Positions 3,151-17,151 of a stretch of 24,642 nucleotides of DNA are shown in pieces. Numbering within the stretch: position 1 is the stretch's first letter; every line of letters starts with the position of its first letter. Both the position numbers and the translations under genes were made by a program. The notes under the pieces are model-generated. The model was not told where the DNA came from. It worked only from the letters and a program-made list of their open reading frames with translations, and made no database searches. Location: positions 1 to 24,642 of IMG/VR virus record IMGVR_UViG_3300030108_000482; one strand, 5' to 3'. Source of the DNA: a virus.

Positions 3151-3357
3151 ATGGCAGTTAAGAAGAAAAAGACTAAAGGTATGGCCAAAGGCGGTCCTGT
3201 CCGTAAGAAAATGATGGGCGGGGGCATGGCTTATGGCAAGAAAACCAAGGGTATGGCCAAAGGTGGCGCTGCTCGCAAGAAAATGCGGTACGGCGGCATG
3301 GCTGGTGGTAAGAAAACCAAGGGTATGGCTAAAGGTGGTGCGGCAAAACGTAGGTAA
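3151..3357 (+). CDS. Gly/Lys/Met tandem-repeat protein without acidic residues
   Basis: 68 aa with a strong Shine-Dalgarno (AAGGAG, 3139-3144, 6 bases from the ATG). The protein consists of three copies of a 24-residue unit whose core is KKTKGMAKGG, starting at residues 6, 30 and 54. The first two copies continue with (P/A)(V/A)RKKM and a Gly-Met-Ala linker. It uses only nine kinds of amino acid (A, G, K, M, P, R, T, V, Y), with 19 Lys, 5 Arg, 9 Met and no Asp or Glu. It is probably disordered and polycationic. I recall similar KGMAKGG proteins in marine phage structural regions, without a known function. DNA condensation or a virion-internal role is inference. Confidence 0.68.
   Translation: MAVKKKKTKGMAKGGPVRKKMMGGGMAYGKKTKGMAKGGAARKKMRYGGMAGGKKTKGMAKGGAAKRR
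3166..3357 (+). repeat. 72-bp tandem repeat inside the KGMAKGG gene
   Basis: Codons for KKTKG recur at 3166, 3238 and 3310, an exact 72-base period. Copies differ mostly at synonymous positions (for example aaaact versus aaaacc). The third copy is truncated by the stop codon. The synonymous divergence suggests that the peptide repeat is kept by selection rather than being a recent duplication. Confidence 0.75.
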
Positions 3358-4338: not shown

Positions 4339-6714
4339 ATGGCTGAAACCCCTATTTCTTTGATTGATGGAGCAATGCCCGCTCAAGGCGAGAATCTTCT
4401 TGAGGAAGAAGAATCTATTGAGGTTGAGGGACTTGAAGATCCGACAGAGATCATTGAAGAAGAGGATGGTTCTGTCATCATCAACTTTGAGGACGCTGTC
4501 AGAGAACAGATGTTCGCAGAGCAAGATGCAAACCTTGCGGAGCTTTTGGACGAACGTGACCTCAATGATATCGCTCAAGAACTCCTATATCTATACGAGG
4601 AGGACAAGTCTGGCCGACAGGAGTGGGAAGATGCGTACTCTGACGGTCTTGACCTTCTTGGTATCAAATATGAAGACCGTGAGGAGCCCTTTCGAGGGTC
4701 TAGTGGTGTAACGCACCCTGTTATTGCTGAAGCCGTGACACAGTTTCAGTCGCAGGCATACAAGGAGCTTCTGCCCTCGTCTGGCCCCGTTCGCACGGAG
4801 ATTGTAGGCGCCGTCACTCCAGAAACAGAAGATCAAGCACAGCGTGTTAAGGATTTCATGAACTACGAAATCCTGAATGTTATGCAAGAGTATGATCCTG
4901 AAACGGATCGTATGCTCTTCTATCTGCCGTTGGCTGGGAGCGCGTTCAAGAAGATTTACTTTGATGACATGCTGGACAGGGCCGTAGCGCGGTTCGTGCC
5001 GGCTGATGATCTTGTTGTACCTTACAATGCTACGGATCTTGAGTCTGCATCTCGTATTGCTCACGTTGTACGCATGGACATCAACAATGTCCGTAAAAAT
5101 CAGGCGGCTGGGTTCTATCGCGATGTTGAACTGACGCCGTATGAATCTGACGATAGTCTACGAGAGAAAGAGCGGGAACTTGTCGGCGTAGAAAAGACCG
5201 TTGATGGAGAAGATTGCACTCTCATAGAGTTTCATATCGACCTTGATTTGAAAGGCTTTGAGCATGTCAGTCCCTTGGATGGAGAAGAAACGGGTATCAA
5301 GTTGCCGTATATTGTTACGGTGGATGAGGGGAGCACGACGGTTTTATCGATCCGTCGCAACTGGAATGAAGGCGATGAGTATTACAAGAAGAATCAATAT
5401 TTCACGCATTACAAGTTTCTTCCGGGGCTAGGCTTCTACGGCCTTGGTCTGCTTCATATGATTGGAGGTCTTGGCCGTTCCGCGACTTCTATTATGCGAC
5501 AGTTGATTGATGCTGGCACCTTGGCGAACCTACCCGCTGGATTCAAAGCCAGAGGTATTCGCATCCGTGACTCTGACGAACCTCTTGCTCCCGGCGAGTT
5601 CCGCGACATTGACGCCCCTGGTGGTGCCTTGCGCGATAGCCTGATGCCGCTTCCCTACAAGGAACCAAGTCAGACGTTGTACTCTCTGCTAGGTTTCGTA
5701 GTAGAGGCAGGCCAGAGATTTGCCGCGATTGCGGATCTTCAGGTTGGTGACGGCAACCAGCAGGCGGCTGTAGGGACAACGGTGGCGCTTCTTGAGAGGG
5801 GCTCACGGGTGATGTCCGCTATTCATAAGCGGCTTCACTACGCTCAGAAACAAGAGTTCAGGATGCTGGCGAAGATATTCAAGGAATCTTTGCCACCCAT
5901 GTACCCCTACAACGTCTACGGTGCGGAGTCCTTCATTAAGCAGATGGACTTTGATGACCGTGTCGATGTTATTCCTGTATCTGATCCGAATATCTTTTCT
6001 CTATCGCAGCGGATAGCGATAGCACAAACACAGCTTCAGCTGGCGCAGTCAAACCCACAGATGCATAACCTGTTTGAGGCGTACAGAAGGATGTATCAGG
6101 CACTGGGGGTTCAGAACATAGAGGCAATCTTGCCTACACCCAAACCTCCACAGCCTACTGATCCAGCGATTGAGAACGCTCGAGCGTTGATTCAAGAGAA
6201 CTTACAGGCGTTTCCGACACAGGATCATGACGCGCACATTCTGTCGCACATTACGTTCATGAAAACACCTGTTCCAGCAGGCACCCCGCCTGTTCTTGGT
6301 CTTCTTCAGGCTCATATCTGTGAGCATATCGCTCTTAAAGCCCGAAATGTAGTTCAGGCAAAAGGTATGATGATGGCAGAAGAAGCTATGGCGCAAGGAA
6401 TGCAGCCACCTCAGATGGACGTAGAGGCCGAGGTTGCACAGTTAGTCGCGGAATATATGCAAGAAATCATGCCTATGCTTGGACCGCCACCAGGCGCCGA
6501 TGTTGATCCCCTAGTCGAGCTTCGTGACAAGGAGCTTGATATCAAGGCCATGGATCTCCAACGAAAGGCGAACGAGTTTGCTGCTCGGTTGGACTTTGAC
6601 CAACAGAAGACGGCAGAAAACCAAGAGATCGATAGGGAAAAAATCGATTCTCAAGAGGATATCGCGCTGTTACGGGCGCAGATTAATCAGAGCCGCATAG
6701 ACAAAATGGGTTAA
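4339..6714 (+). CDS. Portal protein
   Basis: 791 aa, the size of P22-like portals. A strongly acidic N-terminal arm (1-75) precedes the core. Characteristic core segments are GIKYEDREEPFRGSSGVTHP (108-127), AVTQFQSQAYKELLP (132-146) and RTEIVGAVTPETE (152-164), then DYxPETDRMLFYLPLAGSAF-type sequence, DDLVVPYNATDLESASRIAH, a long central stem-like region and a Gln/Met-rich helical part. The last 65 residues are a charged coiled coil. The dodecameric portal forms the unique vertex through which DNA enters and leaves and to which the neck binds. The gene follows AAGGTGG at 4324-4330. I expect the terminase genes upstream of this window. Confidence comes from motif recognition and from scaffold and capsid genes downstream. 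Confidence 0.9.
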   Translation: MAETPISLIDGAMPAQGENLLEEEESIEVEGLEDPTEIIEEEDGSVIINFEDAVREQMFAEQDANLAELLDERDLNDIAQELLYLYEEDKSGRQEWEDAYSDGLDLLGIKYEDREEPFRGSSGVTHPVIAEAVTQFQSQAYKELLPSSGPVRTEIVGAVTPETEDQAQRVKDFMNYEILNVMQEYDPETDRMLFYLPLAGSAFKKIYFDDMLDRAVARFVPADDLVVPYNATDLESASRIAHVVRMDINNVRKNQAAGFYRDVELTPYESDDSLREKERELVGVEKTVDGEDCTLIEFHIDLDLKGFEHVSPLDGEETGIKLPYIVTVDEGSTTVLSIRRNWNEGDEYYKKNQYFTHYKFLPGLGFYGLGLLHMIGGLGRSATSIMRQLIDAGTLANLPAGFKARGIRIRDSDEPLAPGEFRDIDAPGGALRDSLMPLPYKEPSQTLYSLLGFVVEAGQRFAAIADLQVGDGNQQAAVGTTVALLERGSRVMSAIHKRLHYAQKQEFRMLAKIFKESLPPMYPYNVYGAESFIKQMDFDDRVDVIPVSDPNIFSLSQRIAIAQTQLQLAQSNPQMHNLFEAYRRMYQALGVQNIEAILPTPKPPQPTDPAIENARALIQENLQAFPTQDHDAHILSHITFMKTPVPAGTPPVLGLLQAHICEHIALKARNVVQAKGMMMAEEAMAQGMQPPQMDVEAEVAQLVAEYMQEIMPMLGPPPGADVDPLVELRDKELDIKAMDLQRKANEFAARLDFDQQKTAENQEIDREKIDSQEDIALLRAQINQSRIDKMG

Positions 6715-6715
6715 T

Positions 6716-6731
6716 TGTTTCACGTGAAACA
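6716..6731. other. parS: parS-identical centromere palindrome
   Basis: The bases TGTTTCACGTGAAACA form a perfect 16-bp palindrome one base after the portal stop codon and before the SD of the next gene. This is identical to the canonical bacterial chromosomal parS site, bound by the ParB CTPase clamp (established knowledge for Bacillus, Caulobacter and most bacteria). By simple 4^16 reasoning an exact match is not expected by chance in a window of this size. No parA or parB gene is visible here. The palindrome could also fold as a weak RNA hairpin, but no U-tract follows, so a terminator is unlikely. Confidence 0.8.
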
Positions 6732-6733
6732 TT

Positions 6734-6738
6734 AGGAG
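6734..6738 (+). promoter_or_regulatory. Ribosome binding site directly beside parS
   Basis: AGGAG lies 2 bases after the parS palindrome and 6 bases before ATG 6745. A ParB complex on the DNA would cover this stretch, and the RNA hairpin formed by the palindrome would end just upstream of the site. Confidence 0.6.
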
Positions 6739-6744
6739 ATAGTT

Positions 6745-6927
6745 ATGGAAGATGTAGAGATGATGAATGAGCCCGTCGAGATCACGATGGAAGAGGTCGA
6801 TGCACCTCCCCCAAATGCTCCTCAAAGACGTAAAGAGGGCGGTGTGTCTCAGCAACTCATTAAGGGTACTGAGGCTCAGTTTAAGAGCCGCTACTTCAAC
6901 AGCAACGGTGGACAAGGAACATTCTAA
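6745..6927 (+). CDS. Small acidic-to-basic protein (60 aa), unknown
   Basis: The N-terminal 25 residues are acidic (EDVEMMNEPVEITMEEVDAP), followed by a Pro-rich turn, a basic patch RRKEGG, and the end KGTEAQFKSRYFNSNGGQGTF. No membrane segment or known domain is seen. It has a good ribosome binding site and overlaps the next gene by TAATG. It is the first of four small genes between portal and co-chaperonin. Such small proteins are common beside portal genes of marine phages. Function unknown. Confidence 0.6.
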   Translation: MEDVEMMNEPVEITMEEVDAPPPNAPQRRKEGGVSQQLIKGTEAQFKSRYFNSNGGQGTF

Positions 6928-7127
6928 TGGCAAAGGGTAGAACGATATCTAGAGATATACTTAATGACGAGAGTGGTCGCACAATATCTGATGCAGATCG
7001 TGCTCGGGCAAAGGATATACTTAATGACGAGAGTGGCCGCACAATATCTGATGCAGATCGTATGTTGTTGAGGTATCTGAGAGACAACGATGGCCCAGGT
7101 AAACCTAAGAAAACAAAGCTGAGATAA
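6927..7127 (+). CDS. Small protein with two 20-residue repeats
   Basis: 66 aa. The unit DILNDESGRTISDADR occurs twice, separated by ARAK, and a partial GRTISRD precedes the first. The C terminus is basic and flexible (GPGKPKKTKLR). The repeats are short, charged and probably helical. Start and stop both overlap neighbours by TAATG, so it is part of a tightly coupled set. No family is recognised. Because the repeats are almost identical at DNA level, copy number may vary between related phages. Confidence 0.6.
   Translation: MAKGRTISRDILNDESGRTISDADRARAKDILNDESGRTISDADRMLLRYLRDNDGPGKPKKTKLR
6954..7061 (+). repeat. Direct 48-bp repeat, 60-bp period
   Basis: Bases 6954-7001 and 7014-7061 differ at a single position (ggtcgc versus ggccgc, a synonymous change) and are separated by 12 bases. 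The near identity, in contrast to the synonymously diverged 72-bp repeat at 3166, points to a recent duplication or ongoing gene conversion. Confidence 0.9.
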
Positions 7128-7246
7128 TGGCAAAGAAACCCTTGTCTCGGAAACAAAAGAAATTAGCTTCTCTCGCACCACCGCGTAACAAGATCACGGG
7201 TGCGGATTTTAAGAAGCTCAAGAAACGTAAGAAGCGGAAAGCTTAA
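7127..7246 (+). CDS. Basic micro-protein (39 aa)
   Basis: Reads MAKKPLSRKQKKLASLAPP, then RNKITGADFKKLKKRKKRKA. The motif KQKKLASLAPPRNKITGADF resembles a short protein I remember near the portal gene in many marine phages, usually annotated hypothetical. It is strongly cationic with one acidic residue (Asp27). Both ends overlap neighbouring genes by TAATG, which fixes the frame well for so small a gene. A role in portal or scaffold interaction or nucleic-acid binding is inference. Confidence 0.62.
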   Translation: MAKKPLSRKQKKLASLAPPRNKITGADFKKLKKRKKRKA

Positions 7247-7443
7247 TGGAAGATGCTCTTTCGTTCGCTTACGCCGTTCTGAAAGCCATAGAAGGAAGGA
7301 TTGAGCTTACAGAACAGAACATATTGCAAGGCGCTCCAGACAACATGGAGAAATATCGACAGTTGGTAGGGGAACTTGAAGGCTTGCAGTATGCCAGAAC
7401 TGAAATCAGAGAACGACTAGATAGGTTGGAGAAAGAAGAATGA
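7246..7443 (+). CDS. Short coiled-coil protein (65 aa)
   Basis: MEDALSFAYAVLKAIEGRIE opens an almost entirely helical protein. Residues about 33-64 (NMEKYRQLVGELEGLQ and onward to RLDRLEKEE) show heptad-like spacing of Leu/Val/Ile. It is acidic, soluble, with no membrane segment. Start and stop overlap neighbours (TAATG and ATGA). A small helical protein just upstream of the co-chaperonin and scaffold could be an assembly factor. This is inferred from position only. Confidence 0.65.
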   Translation: MEDALSFAYAVLKAIEGRIELTEQNILQGAPDNMEKYRQLVGELEGLQYARTEIRERLDRLEKEE

Positions 7444-7895
7444 CCAAAACCTTATACGTGCCAGACCACGTGGCGGAAGCCAAAAGTTCTGTAGCATCAG
7501 CATACGTTGCTGCTGACGAGAAGGTGTTGGACCCTTCTCTTTTAGAAGAGTCCTTACAGGAACGACTGCCTCAACCGACAGGATGGCGCATCTTAGTGAT
7601 GCCCTATGCTGGAAGGGCGACGACAGAAGGGGGTGTTTACATCCCAGACGCTGTCCGAGATCGAGAGGCTTTAGCCACCGTTGTGGCGTATGTCGTTAAG
7701 TTAGGACCACTAGCATACAAAGACCCTCATAAGTTTGGAGACGACATGCAACCATGGTGTTCTGAAGGACAATGGGTGTGTATCGGACGTTATGCTGGTG
7801 CCCGGTTCAAGATTGATGGTGGAGAGGTCCGAATCATCAACGATGATGAGGTCATCGCTACAATCCTTGAGCCAGATGATATTAAACATGTCTAG
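7440..7895 (+). CDS. GroES-like co-chaperonin (Cpn10 family)
   Basis: 151 aa. Residues about 44-143 match the Cpn10 fold pattern: PTGWRILVMPY for the first strand, then the mobile-loop region GRATTEGGVYIPDAVRD (58-74). There GG-V-Y-I occupies the place of the GG-I-V-L tripeptide by which GroES binds GroEL. This is followed by VVAYVVKLGP, QWVCIGRYAGARFKIDGGEV and DDEVIATI, which parallel the conserved GroES segments D-R-V-L-F-G-K-Y-A-G and D-D-I-L-A. It differs from host GroES by a 43-residue N-terminal extension and a longer roof-loop region (GPLAYKDPHKFGDDMQPW). Lying directly before scaffold and capsid genes, it probably pairs with host GroEL to fold the capsid protein, as T4 gp31 does. Confidence 0.85.
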   Translation: MTKTLYVPDHVAEAKSSVASAYVAADEKVLDPSLLEESLQERLPQPTGWRILVMPYAGRATTEGGVYIPDAVRDREALATVVAYVVKLGPLAYKDPHKFGDDMQPWCSEGQWVCIGRYAGARFKIDGGEVRIINDDEVIATILEPDDIKHV

Positions 7896-7912
7896 AAAGC
7901 ATAGAGGATATG

Positions 7913-8827
7913 ATGAGCGAAATTACGGAAACGGAAGAAACAAGGATTGATGTCGGAGACTCTGAAGAGACATCAGTAGATGTAGATGTCTCGGCACCTC
8001 CTAACCCAGCAGCAGACGGCGTAGAGATAGAGTCCTCTGCTGAAGATGACGGCAAAGAGAAAGAGCTGGACGATTACTCCCGCAAGGCTCAGAGCCGAAT
8101 CAAGCAACTGACTTCAAAGTATCGTGAAGAAGAGCGTCAGAAGCAGACGGCACTTGAGTTTGCGGAAAACGTTCGTAAAGAAAACGAAAGCTTGAAGCAG
8201 CGGCTTGAAAATCTTGATAAGGGATATCAAGAAGAGTTTGATAGTCGCGTCACTTCTCAGATTGACTCAGCAAAGCGTATTCTCAAGGACGCTCATGAGA
8301 GCGGAGATGTAGATCGTCTTGTTGAAGCGCAAGAAGCTCTTGCTCAGTTAACTGCTGAAAAGCAGAAGCTCTCTGCTGTTAAAAGGGAAGTTGAAACTGC
8401 GGAACAGGCGCCACAGCCTCAAGCACAGCCTCAAGCACAGCCTCAAGCACAACCGCAACAGAGACAGCCTGACCCAGACCCGAAAGCTCAAGCTTGGGCG
8501 GAAAGGAACCCTTGGTTTGGCACAGACGAAGTTATGACGTATGCGGCCTTCGCAATACATCGAAGGTTGTTTGAGGATGAAGGATTTGACCCCACTTCAG
8601 ATGAGTACTATAGTGAAATAGATAACCGTCTTTTGTCTGAGTTTCCTCAGAAACTTGGTTCAAAGAACGGTAGCAACGGGGGGACTCAGAAGGTTGCGTC
8701 AGCCGAGAGTTCCAAATCCCGCAACAAGGGTGGACGTAAAAAAGTGCGGTTGAGCCCGTCACAAATTGCGATTGCCAAGAAGCTGAATGTGCCGCTTGAA
8801 GAATACGCAAAATATGTGAGGGATTGA
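7913..8827 (+). CDS. Capsid scaffolding protein
   Basis: 304 aa. It has an acidic Ser/Thr/Asp-rich N terminus, a long charged coiled-coil region (about 45-160, YSRKAQSRIKQLTSKYREEE and onward), a flexible linker of (PQAQ)n at about 168-185, and then a compact C-terminal domain with AWAERNPWFGTDEVMTYAAF and IHRRLFEDEGFDPTSDEYY. The basic tail ends AKKLNVPLEEYAKYVRD. The order acidic-coil-basic tail, the W-x-x-x-N-P-W-F motif and the position before the capsid gene are typical of phage scaffolds, which guide procapsid assembly and then leave or are cleaved. Tandem ATGs occur at 7910 and 7913. AGAGGA (7903-7908) favours the second. No protease domain is seen. Confidence 0.85.
   Translation: MSEITETEETRIDVGDSEETSVDVDVSAPPNPAADGVEIESSAEDDGKEKELDDYSRKAQSRIKQLTSKYREEERQKQTALEFAENVRKENESLKQRLENLDKGYQEEFDSRVTSQIDSAKRILKDAHESGDVDRLVEAQEALAQLTAEKQKLSAVKREVETAEQAPQPQAQPQAQPQAQPQQRQPDPDPKAQAWAERNPWFGTDEVMTYAAFAIHRRLFEDEGFDPTSDEYYSEIDNRLLSEFPQKLGSKNGSNGGTQKVASAESSKSRNKGGRKKVRLSPSQIAIAKKLNVPLEEYAKYVRD
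8417..8452 (+). repeat. 12-bp tandem repeat encoding PQAQ linker
   Basis: Three copies of cctcaagcacag (the last differs in one base) encode Pro-Gln-Ala-Gln in the scaffold protein, followed by more degenerate Pro/Gln codons. It is a flexible hinge between coiled coil and C-terminal domain. The near-identical copies make length variation by slippage likely. Confidence 0.85.
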
Positions 8828-9990: not shown

Positions 9991-10899
9991 ATGGCTATTT
10001 CAAGAGCACAACTAGCAAAAGAGCTAGAGCCTGGCCTCAATGCCTTATTTGGACTTGAGTACGCTAGGTACGACGCAGAACATGCTGAAATTTTTGACAC
10101 GGAATCTTCAGAGCGAGCCTTTGAAGAAGAAGTAATGTTGTCTGGCTTTGGCTCGGCACCAGTGAAGTCAGAAGGTTCGGCAGTTTCGTTCGATGACGCC
10201 CAAGAGGCGTACACGGCACGTTACACGATGGAAACGATTGCCTTGGCTTTCTCCATTACGGAAGAAGCTATTGAGGACAATCTCTATGATCGTCTGGCGT
10301 CTCGCTACACAAAGGCACTTGCTCGAAGCATGGCCAACACCAAACAGGTGAAGGCCGCAGCTGTTTTGAACAATGCGTTTGATAGCACCGTGACAGGTGG
10401 CGACGGCGTAGAGCTCTGCTCTACCGCACACCCACTGACGAGCGGAAACACTTTCCGTAACGAATTGGCTACGGCAGCGGACCTCAATGAGACGAGTCTT
10501 GAGAACTCTCTCATCGATATTGCTGCTTTTGTTGACGAGCGTGGGCTCAAGGTCTCAGTTCGAGGCTTGAAGCTCATTGTCCCGCCGGCATTGCAATTCG
10601 TAGCGGATCGTCTGCTTGAATCCACCCTTCGTGTTGGCACCGCAGATAATGACATCAACGCCATTCGGAACATGGGTATGCTTCCGCAAGGCTATGTTGT
10701 TAACCATTATCTGACGGATACGGACGCGTTCTTCATTAAGACCGATGCCCCTCGCGGCTTCGTTCATTTTGAACGTCTTCCGATTACGACCAAAATGGAA
10801 GGTGACTTTGACACTGGTAACGTTCGCTATAAAGCCCGTGAACGTTACAGCTTCGGTTTCTCCGACCCACGTTGTGTGTTTGGATCACCGGGAGCCTAA
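9991..10899 (+). CDS. Major capsid protein (HK97-fold type)
   Basis: 302 aa. It begins MAISRAQLAKELEPGLNALF and has FEEEVMLSGFGSAPVKSEGS, then TARYTMETIALAFSITEEAI (a spine-helix-like segment) and KQVKAAAVLNNAFDS. These are followed by GVELCSTAHPL, LIVPPALQFVADRLLES, RVGTADNDINAIRNMG, and a C-terminal KMEGDFDTGNVRYKARERYS then FGFSDPRCVFGSPGA. The LCSTAHPL, LIVPP and YKARERYSFGF motifs match the Mu gpT/HK97-fold major capsid family. It follows scaffold and co-chaperonin genes, and a strong AAGGAG site precedes the start. A hairpin just downstream may set its transcript level relative to later genes. Confidence 0.9.
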   Translation: MAISRAQLAKELEPGLNALFGLEYARYDAEHAEIFDTESSERAFEEEVMLSGFGSAPVKSEGSAVSFDDAQEAYTARYTMETIALAFSITEEAIEDNLYDRLASRYTKALARSMANTKQVKAAAVLNNAFDSTVTGGDGVELCSTAHPLTSGNTFRNELATAADLNETSLENSLIDIAAFVDERGLKVSVRGLKLIVPPALQFVADRLLESTLRVGTADNDINAIRNMGMLPQGYVVNHYLTDTDAFFIKTDAPRGFVHFERLPITTKMEGDFDTGNVRYKARERYSFGFSDPRCVFGSPGA

Positions 10900-15681: not shown

Positions 15682-17151
15682 ATGGCATCTTCATTTACAA
15701 CGAACTTTGGCATTGAGAAAATTGGCTCTGGTGAACAGTCTGGAGCATGGGGGACGACCACCAATCACAACTTGGACCTTCTAGACCGCATAGCGTCATT
15801 CAAGGCTGTTGGGTTAACCGGCACTACTCACACGCTAACGGTTCGAGAGGCGTCTCCCGACGCTGGAACAGAGAACCTTCAAGATGGCATGTTTCGTGTC
15901 ATAAAGTTTACAGGGGCGCTTGGTGCTAACAATACGGTTACTGTGGCTCCAAATACAACGACAGCATATTTTATCTTTATCAATGCGACGACGGACTCTG
16001 GTTCTAGTGGGCCGTACTCTGTGATCATATCGCAAGGATCTGGCGCTAACATAACCATACCGAATGGTCACACGGCAGTTGTCTTTTGTGATGGCGCGGG
16101 ATCTGGAGCAGCAGTCACGGATGCGTTTGCAAGTTTGTATGTGTCGGATGCTCTGCGGATAGGTGACGGCACTGCCGAGGACACTAAAATTGTTTTTGAT
16201 GGAAACGCACAGGACTTTTACATTGGCCTGGATGACTCTGCGGACGATCTTGTAATCGGTTCAGGTTCCGTTGTCGGCACAACGCCAGCCGTATCCATAG
16301 ATGAAAACCAAGCTGTGGTGTTCCCAGCAGCAGCGGTAACCATAGGTGACGGCACGGCTGAAGACACAAAACTTGTTTTTGACGGCAACGCAAAAGACTT
16401 CTACGTGGGCCTAGACGACAGCGCTGACAAGTTGGTGGTCGGCGTGGGCTCTACTGTTGGAACGAGCGGTGTTATGACGATAGACGATGATGCTGTTACG
16501 ATTGGTGACGGCGCGGAGGTTGACACCAAGATCGTTTATGACGGCAACGCGAAAGATTTCTATGTTGGACTAGACGATAGTGCCGATAAATTCGTAATCG
16601 GTGTAGGTTCCACTGTAGGAACGAACTCCATACTTACCATGGACGACGACTCTGTAACATTGGGAGATGGTGCAGAAGTTGATTCAAAGCTTGTCTTTGA
16701 CGGTAATGCTCAAGATTTTTACATAGCACTAGATGACTCAGCCGATGACCTTGTGTTTGGACAAGGGTCAACGGTTGGTAGCAACGTCGCGTTTGCGATT
16801 GATGAAAATCAAGTTACCAGCTTCAGCCATGCGGCGGTGGGCTCAACTCAAACAGCTTCGGTTTCTGGTAACACCACATTGGATTTTCAAACATATCAGA
16901 ATTTTGTTTTGACCTTCACGGCCAATGTAACCTTCGACAACCCATCAACTGAGGCTGTTGGTCAGTCTGGGTTTATTATTATTATTCATAATGGGGCGGG
17001 AAGAACTCTTGCGTTAGGGACTGATTACGAGACGGCGGGTGGTGCGGGACTGACACTCTCGTCAACGGCATCCGCAGTTGATGTCGTGCCGTATGTAGTT
17101 AAAGCAAGCGGGTCCATTCAGTTGGGTGCCGCGCAGTTGGCGTTCGCATAA
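15682..17151 (+). CDS. Tail fibre protein with four ~53-61-residue repeats
   Basis: 489 aa. The N-terminal MASSFTTNFGIEKIGSGEQS, GAWGTTTNHNLDLLD and a domain to about residue 150 resemble the virion-attachment end of marine phage fibres (F-G-I-E-K-(I/P)-x-x-G-(E/D)-x-x-G-x-W-G-x-T-x-N). Then come four repeats of the form (V/R)-I-G-D-G-x-x-x-D-T-K-(I/L)-V-F-D-G-N-A-(Q/K)-D-F-Y-(I/V)-G-L-D-D-S-A-D, at about residues 158, 219, 272 and 325. The C-terminal part is a beta-rich cap: SGNTTLDFQTYQNFVLTFTA, SGFIIIIHNGAGRTLALG. The repeats probably form the trimeric shaft. The ATG lies 10 bases after the previous stop. Confidence 0.8.
   Translation: MASSFTTNFGIEKIGSGEQSGAWGTTTNHNLDLLDRIASFKAVGLTGTTHTLTVREASPDAGTENLQDGMFRVIKFTGALGANNTVTVAPNTTTAYFIFINATTDSGSSGPYSVIISQGSGANITIPNGHTAVVFCDGAGSGAAVTDAFASLYVSDALRIGDGTAEDTKIVFDGNAQDFYIGLDDSADDLVIGSGSVVGTTPAVSIDENQAVVFPAAAVTIGDGTAEDTKLVFDGNAKDFYVGLDDSADKLVVGVGSTVGTSGVMTIDDDAVTIGDGAEVDTKIVYDGNAKDFYVGLDDSADKFVIGVGSTVGTNSILTMDDDSVTLGDGAEVDSKLVFDGNAQDFYIALDDSADDLVFGQGSTVGSNVAFAIDENQVTSFSHAAVGSTQTASVSGNTTLDFQTYQNFVLTFTANVTFDNPSTEAVGQSGFIIIIHNGAGRTLALGTDYETAGGAGLTLSSTASAVDVVPYVVKASGSIQLGAAQLAFA
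16153..16830 (+). repeat. Four long tandem repeats in fibre gene
   Basis: The codons for the central I/L-G-D-G motif start at 16159, 16342, 16501 and 16660, giving periods of 183, 159 and 159 bases. Copies 2 to 4 align without length change over the core; copy 1 carries an 8-residue extra piece before the next unit. Synonymous differences are frequent, so the repeat is old but conserved in protein. Confidence 0.78.

Follow-up and report, generated by a model that had tools for sequence, protein, structure and literature searches.

A chromosomal-type parS site maintained in the head operon of a marine phage family with no detected ParB

Introduction

Some phages hijack XerCD via dif-like sites. 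The closest precedent for the locus described here is SGI1, whose parS mimics hijack the ParABS system of the IncC plasmid: the foreign ParB is bound, the element is stabilised and the competitor is harmed (PMC10954446). Partition elements are also known from phages, namely P1, extrachromosomal mycobacterial prophages (PMC7157519) and the ParB-bearing Staphylococcus phage Lacachita (PMC10286716). In bacteria, parS is the place where ParB is loaded as a CTP clamp and from which it spreads; ParB also stimulates ParA, and SMC is brought to the same sites (PMC12704722, PMC10197239). The palindrome TGTTTCACGTGAAACA serves as the chromosomal parS consensus in one of these studies (PMC10197239), after Livny et al. 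2007.

Here we describe a marine phage that carries a perfect copy of parS, the sequence that bacteria use as a chromosome centromere. The site is the same 16-bp palindrome as in chromosomal ParABS (Spo0J-parS), with the same tolerated positions (1, 5 and 8) as in Bacteroidota chromosomes, but it lies in a head operon, away from a chromosomal origin and without parA or parB alongside. As in SGI1, a mobile element without parAB of its own carries the parS of another replicon. In SGI1, however, binding and effects are experimental, whereas here the proposed target is the ParB of the host chromosome, the carrier is a lytic-type phage, and binding and effect are predicted. The plasmid prophages P1, those of mycobacteria and Lacachita have a ParB gene of their own, in most cases together with ParA, in contrast to the phage family studied here, in which neither was found. 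The dif-hijacking phages likewise combine a host chromosome-maintenance site with a host protein, but the dif hijack serves integration, and none is suggested here.

Results

We analysed a 24,642-nt IMG/VR fragment (IMGVR_UViG_3300030108_000482), hereafter the window, which contains one copy of TGTTTCACGTGAAACA with no mismatches at positions 6716-6731. The portal stop codon (TAA, 6712-6714) is followed by a single spacer base (T, 6715), the palindrome, the ribosome site TTAGGAGA and the ATG at 6745. A first-pass annotation had described a perfect canonical parS between the portal stop and the ribosome site and had put its chance occurrence in the window at about 6e-6. The site is exact as described, and the number of copies expected from base composition (6.6e-6) agrees with that figure. 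The features around the site are as follows.

4339..6714, + strand: portal protein gene (phrog_1216, E 4e-48), which stops 1 base ahead of the site
6715..7439, + strand: variable portal-to-GroES interval, which holds the site in every site-bearing locus that spans it
6716..6731, no strand assigned: parS palindrome TGTTTCACGTGAAACA, an exact match to the 16-mer
6745..6927, + strand: small gene (open reading frame, 60 aa) immediately 3' of the site
7440..7895, + strand: GroES-like co-chaperonin (Pfam Cpn10 PF00166, E 1.9e-8), the right border of the interval
7910..8827, + strand: conserved 305-aa protein (phrog_28737) between the GroES and capsid genes
9991..10899, + strand: major capsid protein (phrog_371, E 7e-22)

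The 60-aa gene had no match in PHROG or Pfam searches. We also noted several repeats in the window. A gene for 66 aa that lies shortly 3' of the site contains, at 6954-7061, two nearly perfect copies of a ~48-base stretch at a spacing of 60 bases, and tandem repeats occur within a small gene (3178-3339, 72-bp unit) and in the gene for the 305-aa protein (8412-8458, a 12-bp unit coding PQAQ).

Relatives were fetched by the portal protein alone, blind to the site, which yielded 80 loci totalling 642 kb and a stronger test than the single copy in the window. The exact 16-mer is present in 45 of these loci, with 47 copies against ~1.7e-4 expected, while none of 764 palindromes made by shuffling its letters occurs and the next commonest 16-bp palindrome occurs in 2 of the 80. 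Among the loci that span the region from portal to GroES, 39 of 42 carry a site (defined as up to 2 mismatches, at positions tolerated by ParB), 27 of them exactly. Counted as species-level clusters (95% portal DNA identity), the site is found in 27 of 29, and a 44-kb contig (G001) represents a near-identical relative of the window phage (portal 99%). The three spanning loci that lack the site (L022, L024 and L039) fall together in one nested clade of the portal tree, where L024 groups with L022 and the fragment L010 is a further member; because they share this clade, their lack of the site is a derived loss. By its own criterion, the first-pass annotation would have been overturned by loss or unconstrained mutation of the palindrome in close relatives, and the retention in 39 of 42 loci gives no such refutation.

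The site is far better conserved than its surroundings. Within the window clade, in each of the four main classes of position, it is 93-100% identical between distinct sequences, whereas the 30 bases upstream are 48-66% identical, the 15 bases downstream 43-79% and sequence further away 31-56%, so that the flanks overall range from 31 to 79% and are mostly below 56%. In a more divergent class the flanks are only 26-38% identical, although these loci were chosen by the exact site and the comparison is thus biased. The contrast between site and flanks, together with the presence of the site in 27 of 29 clusters, is the pattern of an element maintained by selection.

Gene junctions change around the conserved palindrome. 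Between relatives the site lies at differing junctions, mostly directly after a stop codon, and the next gene differs. Clustering over 115 family loci gave 36 position classes, an upper bound, since loci with a common ancestral position but strongly diverged flanks could have been counted in separate classes. Single genomes hold several exact copies in unrelated surroundings (three in L017 and in L133, five in L124), and new copies therefore arise. One of the copies in L017 lies within the homologue of the gene for the 305-aa protein; this placement and the changing junctions argue for a role at the DNA level. The position is not wholly free, as within the window clade the site was never found outside the portal-to-GroES interval (39 of 39 site-bearing spanning loci). 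L124 (a 12.1-kb contig) and L133 are distant portal relatives (~35%) whose five and three exact copies, respectively, lie within ~1 kb, an arrangement that recalls the centromere clusters of bacteria. The two fragments showed no ParB.

Changes in the phage sites are confined to half-site positions 1 (T1/A16), 5 (T5/A12) and 8 (C8/G9). None of the 20 counted changes, which are partly shared by descent, falls at positions 2, 3, 4, 6 or 7. A parS at ≤1 mismatch is present in 83 of 99 Bacteroidota genomes, and among the matches listed all 36 one-mismatch chromosomal sites differ at position 5 (21), 1 (10) or 8 (5). In 13 phage isolates unrelated to the family, all six sites with one mismatch differ at these same three positions. 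By these criteria the window and its relatives carry a chromosomal-type parS, either TGTTTCACGTGAAACA itself or a permitted variant. The comparisons indicate that the site is kept by selection for ParB-type binding and, because the tolerance pattern of the phage sites equals that of chromosomal parS, point to ParB itself as the likely reader. We consider it very likely that the ParB of the host binds the phage site.

We also asked whether the phage itself encodes proteins that might serve the site. PF02195, the N-terminal family of ParB, was absent from the window and from 28 family records, of which 23 are contigs and 5 are isolates, a search that covers the window as a 24.6-kb fragment and the contigs of relatives as far as these reach, and in which divergent ParB-like proteins could fall below the reach of the profile; in a control search the profile matched in 10 of 14 genomes. 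Among 90 other viral contigs fetched by the exact site there were three matches to PF02195, two of which exceeded the cut-off, and all three contigs fall outside the window phage family. In 16 long relatives and isolates we found neither ParA (PF13614) nor a tyrosine integrase (PF00589). The gene content of a 56-kb relative (G008), which encodes DNA polymerase A, primase, helicases, terminase subunits, endolysin, DNA methyltransferases and Pam3-like genes, appears to be a lytic-type set. An integrated prophage is contradicted by the lack of an integrase in all 16 of these relatives and isolates. The first-pass annotation had proposed, as one option, a plasmid prophage with its own ParB elsewhere; the search of long relatives returned neither parA nor parB, and the counts (PF02195 in none of 28 records or the window, PF13614 and PF00589 in 0/16) contradict that proposal. 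By contrast, its reading of the site as a real parS in a phage with no visible parB is borne out by conservation, tolerance and the absence of PF02195, and the site is in addition kept by selection.

The exact 16-mer also occurs in 286 of 50,697 public phage records, many of them near-identical, so that this figure is not a number of independent gains; two shuffled palindromes occur in none. The records include Listeria P100-like phages, phages of Microbacterium, Arthrobacter, Gordonia, Clavibacter, Lactobacillus, Bacillus and Ruegeria, phi29-like phages of Bacillus and Enterococcus, Vibrio phage phi 3 and gut microviruses. In Butyrivibrio phages one parS likewise lies between portal and protease, while in unrelated phages the site is found in early regions, in terminal repeats or within genes. 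The 13 isolates with parS that we examined whole carry 1-4 sites each, and 12 of them are without ParB. A factor common to parS-bearing phages of so many hosts would most simply be the host's own ParB.

Some of these phages merit separate mention. The sole ParB-domain protein among the 13 isolates is encoded by the Microbacterium phage Quhwah (W10:49574-49831, in a 297-aa frame); its gene is ~7 kb from parS (region L434), which itself lies within the gene of another DNA-binding protein. The T5-like Vibrio phage phi 3 (KP280063.1, L431) has parS at 821-836 and 2934-2949, one exact and one a position-5 variant, in the terminal repeat, whose DNA is expected to enter first, with a site between the A1 and A2 genes. 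Microviridae and related small ssDNA phages of 4-6 kb (for example, MG945234.1) carry exact parS, some in up to six copies, and the small phage PQ006149.1 gave 12 hits with both strands counted. One shuffled control palindrome, TGTTCTACGTAGAACA, is present in many IMG/VR viral contigs (at least L225-L304) and in none of the phage collection, and may itself be conserved as a site in a group of phages. Given the frequency of this control, IMG/VR counts are unfit as an enrichment figure, and we used the portal-chosen loci and the phage collection instead.

To our knowledge, Escherichia, Salmonella and Klebsiella have no chromosomal ParB. No phage of these genera appears among the 120 matches listed, and the three names are missing from the ten commonest among parS-bearing records. 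This fits a dependence on host ParB but is suggestive only, as only part of the 286 records was listed.

Spread within the wider family has limits. The Pelagibacter phage HTVC027P has a single one-mismatch site (a change at position 1) at 16412, ~10 kb before the portal, and the isolated relatives HTVC023P, CRP-902, DSL-LC04 and 023Pt_psg01 have no site at up to 2 mismatches. No ParB-compatible site was found on 80 fragments of the HTVC027P clade, most of which end short of the place of the HTVC027P site. Because the isolated relatives are mostly without the site and the fragments of the HTVC027P clade lack a compatible one, the trait is a property of particular clades rather than of the capsid type itself, and any benefit would be clade- or host-dependent. 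A search for hosts via genome contigs recovered two distant portal relatives only, in a Flavobacterium single-cell genome and a Chloroflexi bin, with no site in the DNA fetched. The GC content of the window clade (47%), as against 36% in the HTVC027P clade, argues against SAR11 as its host.

Discussion

Given the analyses presented above, we think it probable that the parS copy is kept so that host ParB loads on the phage DNA, where it would recruit SMC and ParA in cis, perhaps with a concurrent depletion of ParB from the host origin. Over the length that the contigs cover, phage DNA usually has a single parS and no parB. Host ParB-CTP clamps would load at the phage site and slide across the neighbouring kilobases, a step that we infer from what is known of ParB biochemistry and from the sequence rules that phage and chromosomal sites share. 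The ParB load might then lead to SMC-condensin loading and ParA attachment, as at the host origin, and access to SMC and ParA could help to place, compact or separate replicating phage genomes. As phage copies rise, their many sites would draw ParB and SMC off the host origin. For SGI1, experiments show that a parS mimic can have both kinds of effect simultaneously on another replicon (PMC10954446). A site that serves the whole genome in cis would leave the exact gene junction nearly free. Binding is predicted from the sequence patterns, and which benefit follows from it is a proposal.

Alternatively, the site may be a decoy, whereby titration of host ParB (and thereby of SMC, ParA and division control) off the origin halts segregation or division, with no gain in cis. 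Replicating phage genomes would exceed the few parS of the host (Bacteroidota have mostly 1-3 sites at ≤1 mismatch), a decoy needs no fixed position, and the parS mimics of SGI1 destabilise a competitor replicon (PMC10954446). However, most family contigs have one site only, when a pure decoy would profit from many, and the terminal-repeat sites of Vibrio phage phi 3 suggest use at an early stage, ahead of high copy number. We regard a pure decoy as unlikely, although still to be taken seriously. The first-pass annotation had listed both hijack of host ParB/SMC and titration among its options; both fit, and they are indistinguishable here.

Control of late genes, a further option of that annotation, would have ParB repress or time the portal and capsid operon by spreading or by blocking transcription. 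The confinement of the window-clade site to the head operon in all 39 loci is in keeping with this idea, and ParB is reported to be able to repress promoters beside strong parS in Pseudomonas (PMC5521831). It is weakened by the varying junctions and next genes, by the HTVC027P site ~10 kb away and by the early regions, terminal repeats and gene interiors that hold the site in unrelated phages, even though spreading could still cover the operon. We consider local gene control improbable, and less likely than hijack of host ParB in cis.

Upkeep of an episome, that is, a carrier state or plasmid-like prophage partitioned by the host ParABS as SGI1 is by that of a plasmid (PMC10954446), would be the simplest use for a centromere and has the SGI1 precedent. 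However, no integrase or ParA was found in 16 long relatives and isolates of the family, and the 56-kb relative has lytic-type genes (PolA, primase, helicases, terminase and endolysin). Sites are also carried by phi29-like and P100-like phages, which are lytic. This explanation too seems doubtful to us.

An accidental likeness to parS, with the palindrome acting as an RNA hairpin or as an operator for some protein of the phage itself, is very improbable. The palindrome can fold as RNA into a 6-bp hairpin and sits at stop/start junctions, but a hairpin would tolerate compensatory changes and none were seen; the identical letters recur at unrelated places, within genes and in unrelated phages, and the variants follow the tolerance of chromosomal parS. 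Chance or an assembly artefact, for which nothing but the first single sighting could speak, is ruled out by the relatives (45 of 80), the shuffled controls (none) and the 286 phage-collection records.

As a kind of site the palindrome is familiar; what appears to be new is its use by lytic-type phages without ParB, its family-wide selection and its presence in many unrelated phages. In the open-access literature searched, we found no description of natural lytic phages with a chromosomal parS. The first-pass annotation had called the site a little-described phage-host interface; we found no earlier description of it, but it is not peculiar to the window phage.

Beyond this family, we lean, if only slightly, towards the view that centromere mimicry is a general phage strategy, in which phages of lytic type, with hosts from many bacterial phyla, have gained and kept 1-4 host parS sites independently of one another. 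Host ParB, and through it SMC and ParA, would be loaded on viral DNA, which would organise the viral genomes and deprive the host chromosome of these proteins. Among the carriers are phi29-like phages of Bacillus subtilis, such as B103, Goe1 and BSP11, which makes the idea testable in laboratory systems; parB (spo0J) of B. subtilis is non-essential. In laboratory practice, phage DNA is tagged with parS and fluorescent ParB (PMC13190303), of which the parS phages would, if the proposal is true, be a natural counterpart. A plain 16-bp search would then predict phages that use host ParB. If host ParB does load on phage genomes, the chromosome segregation proteins would be both a target and a tool of phages in many hosts.
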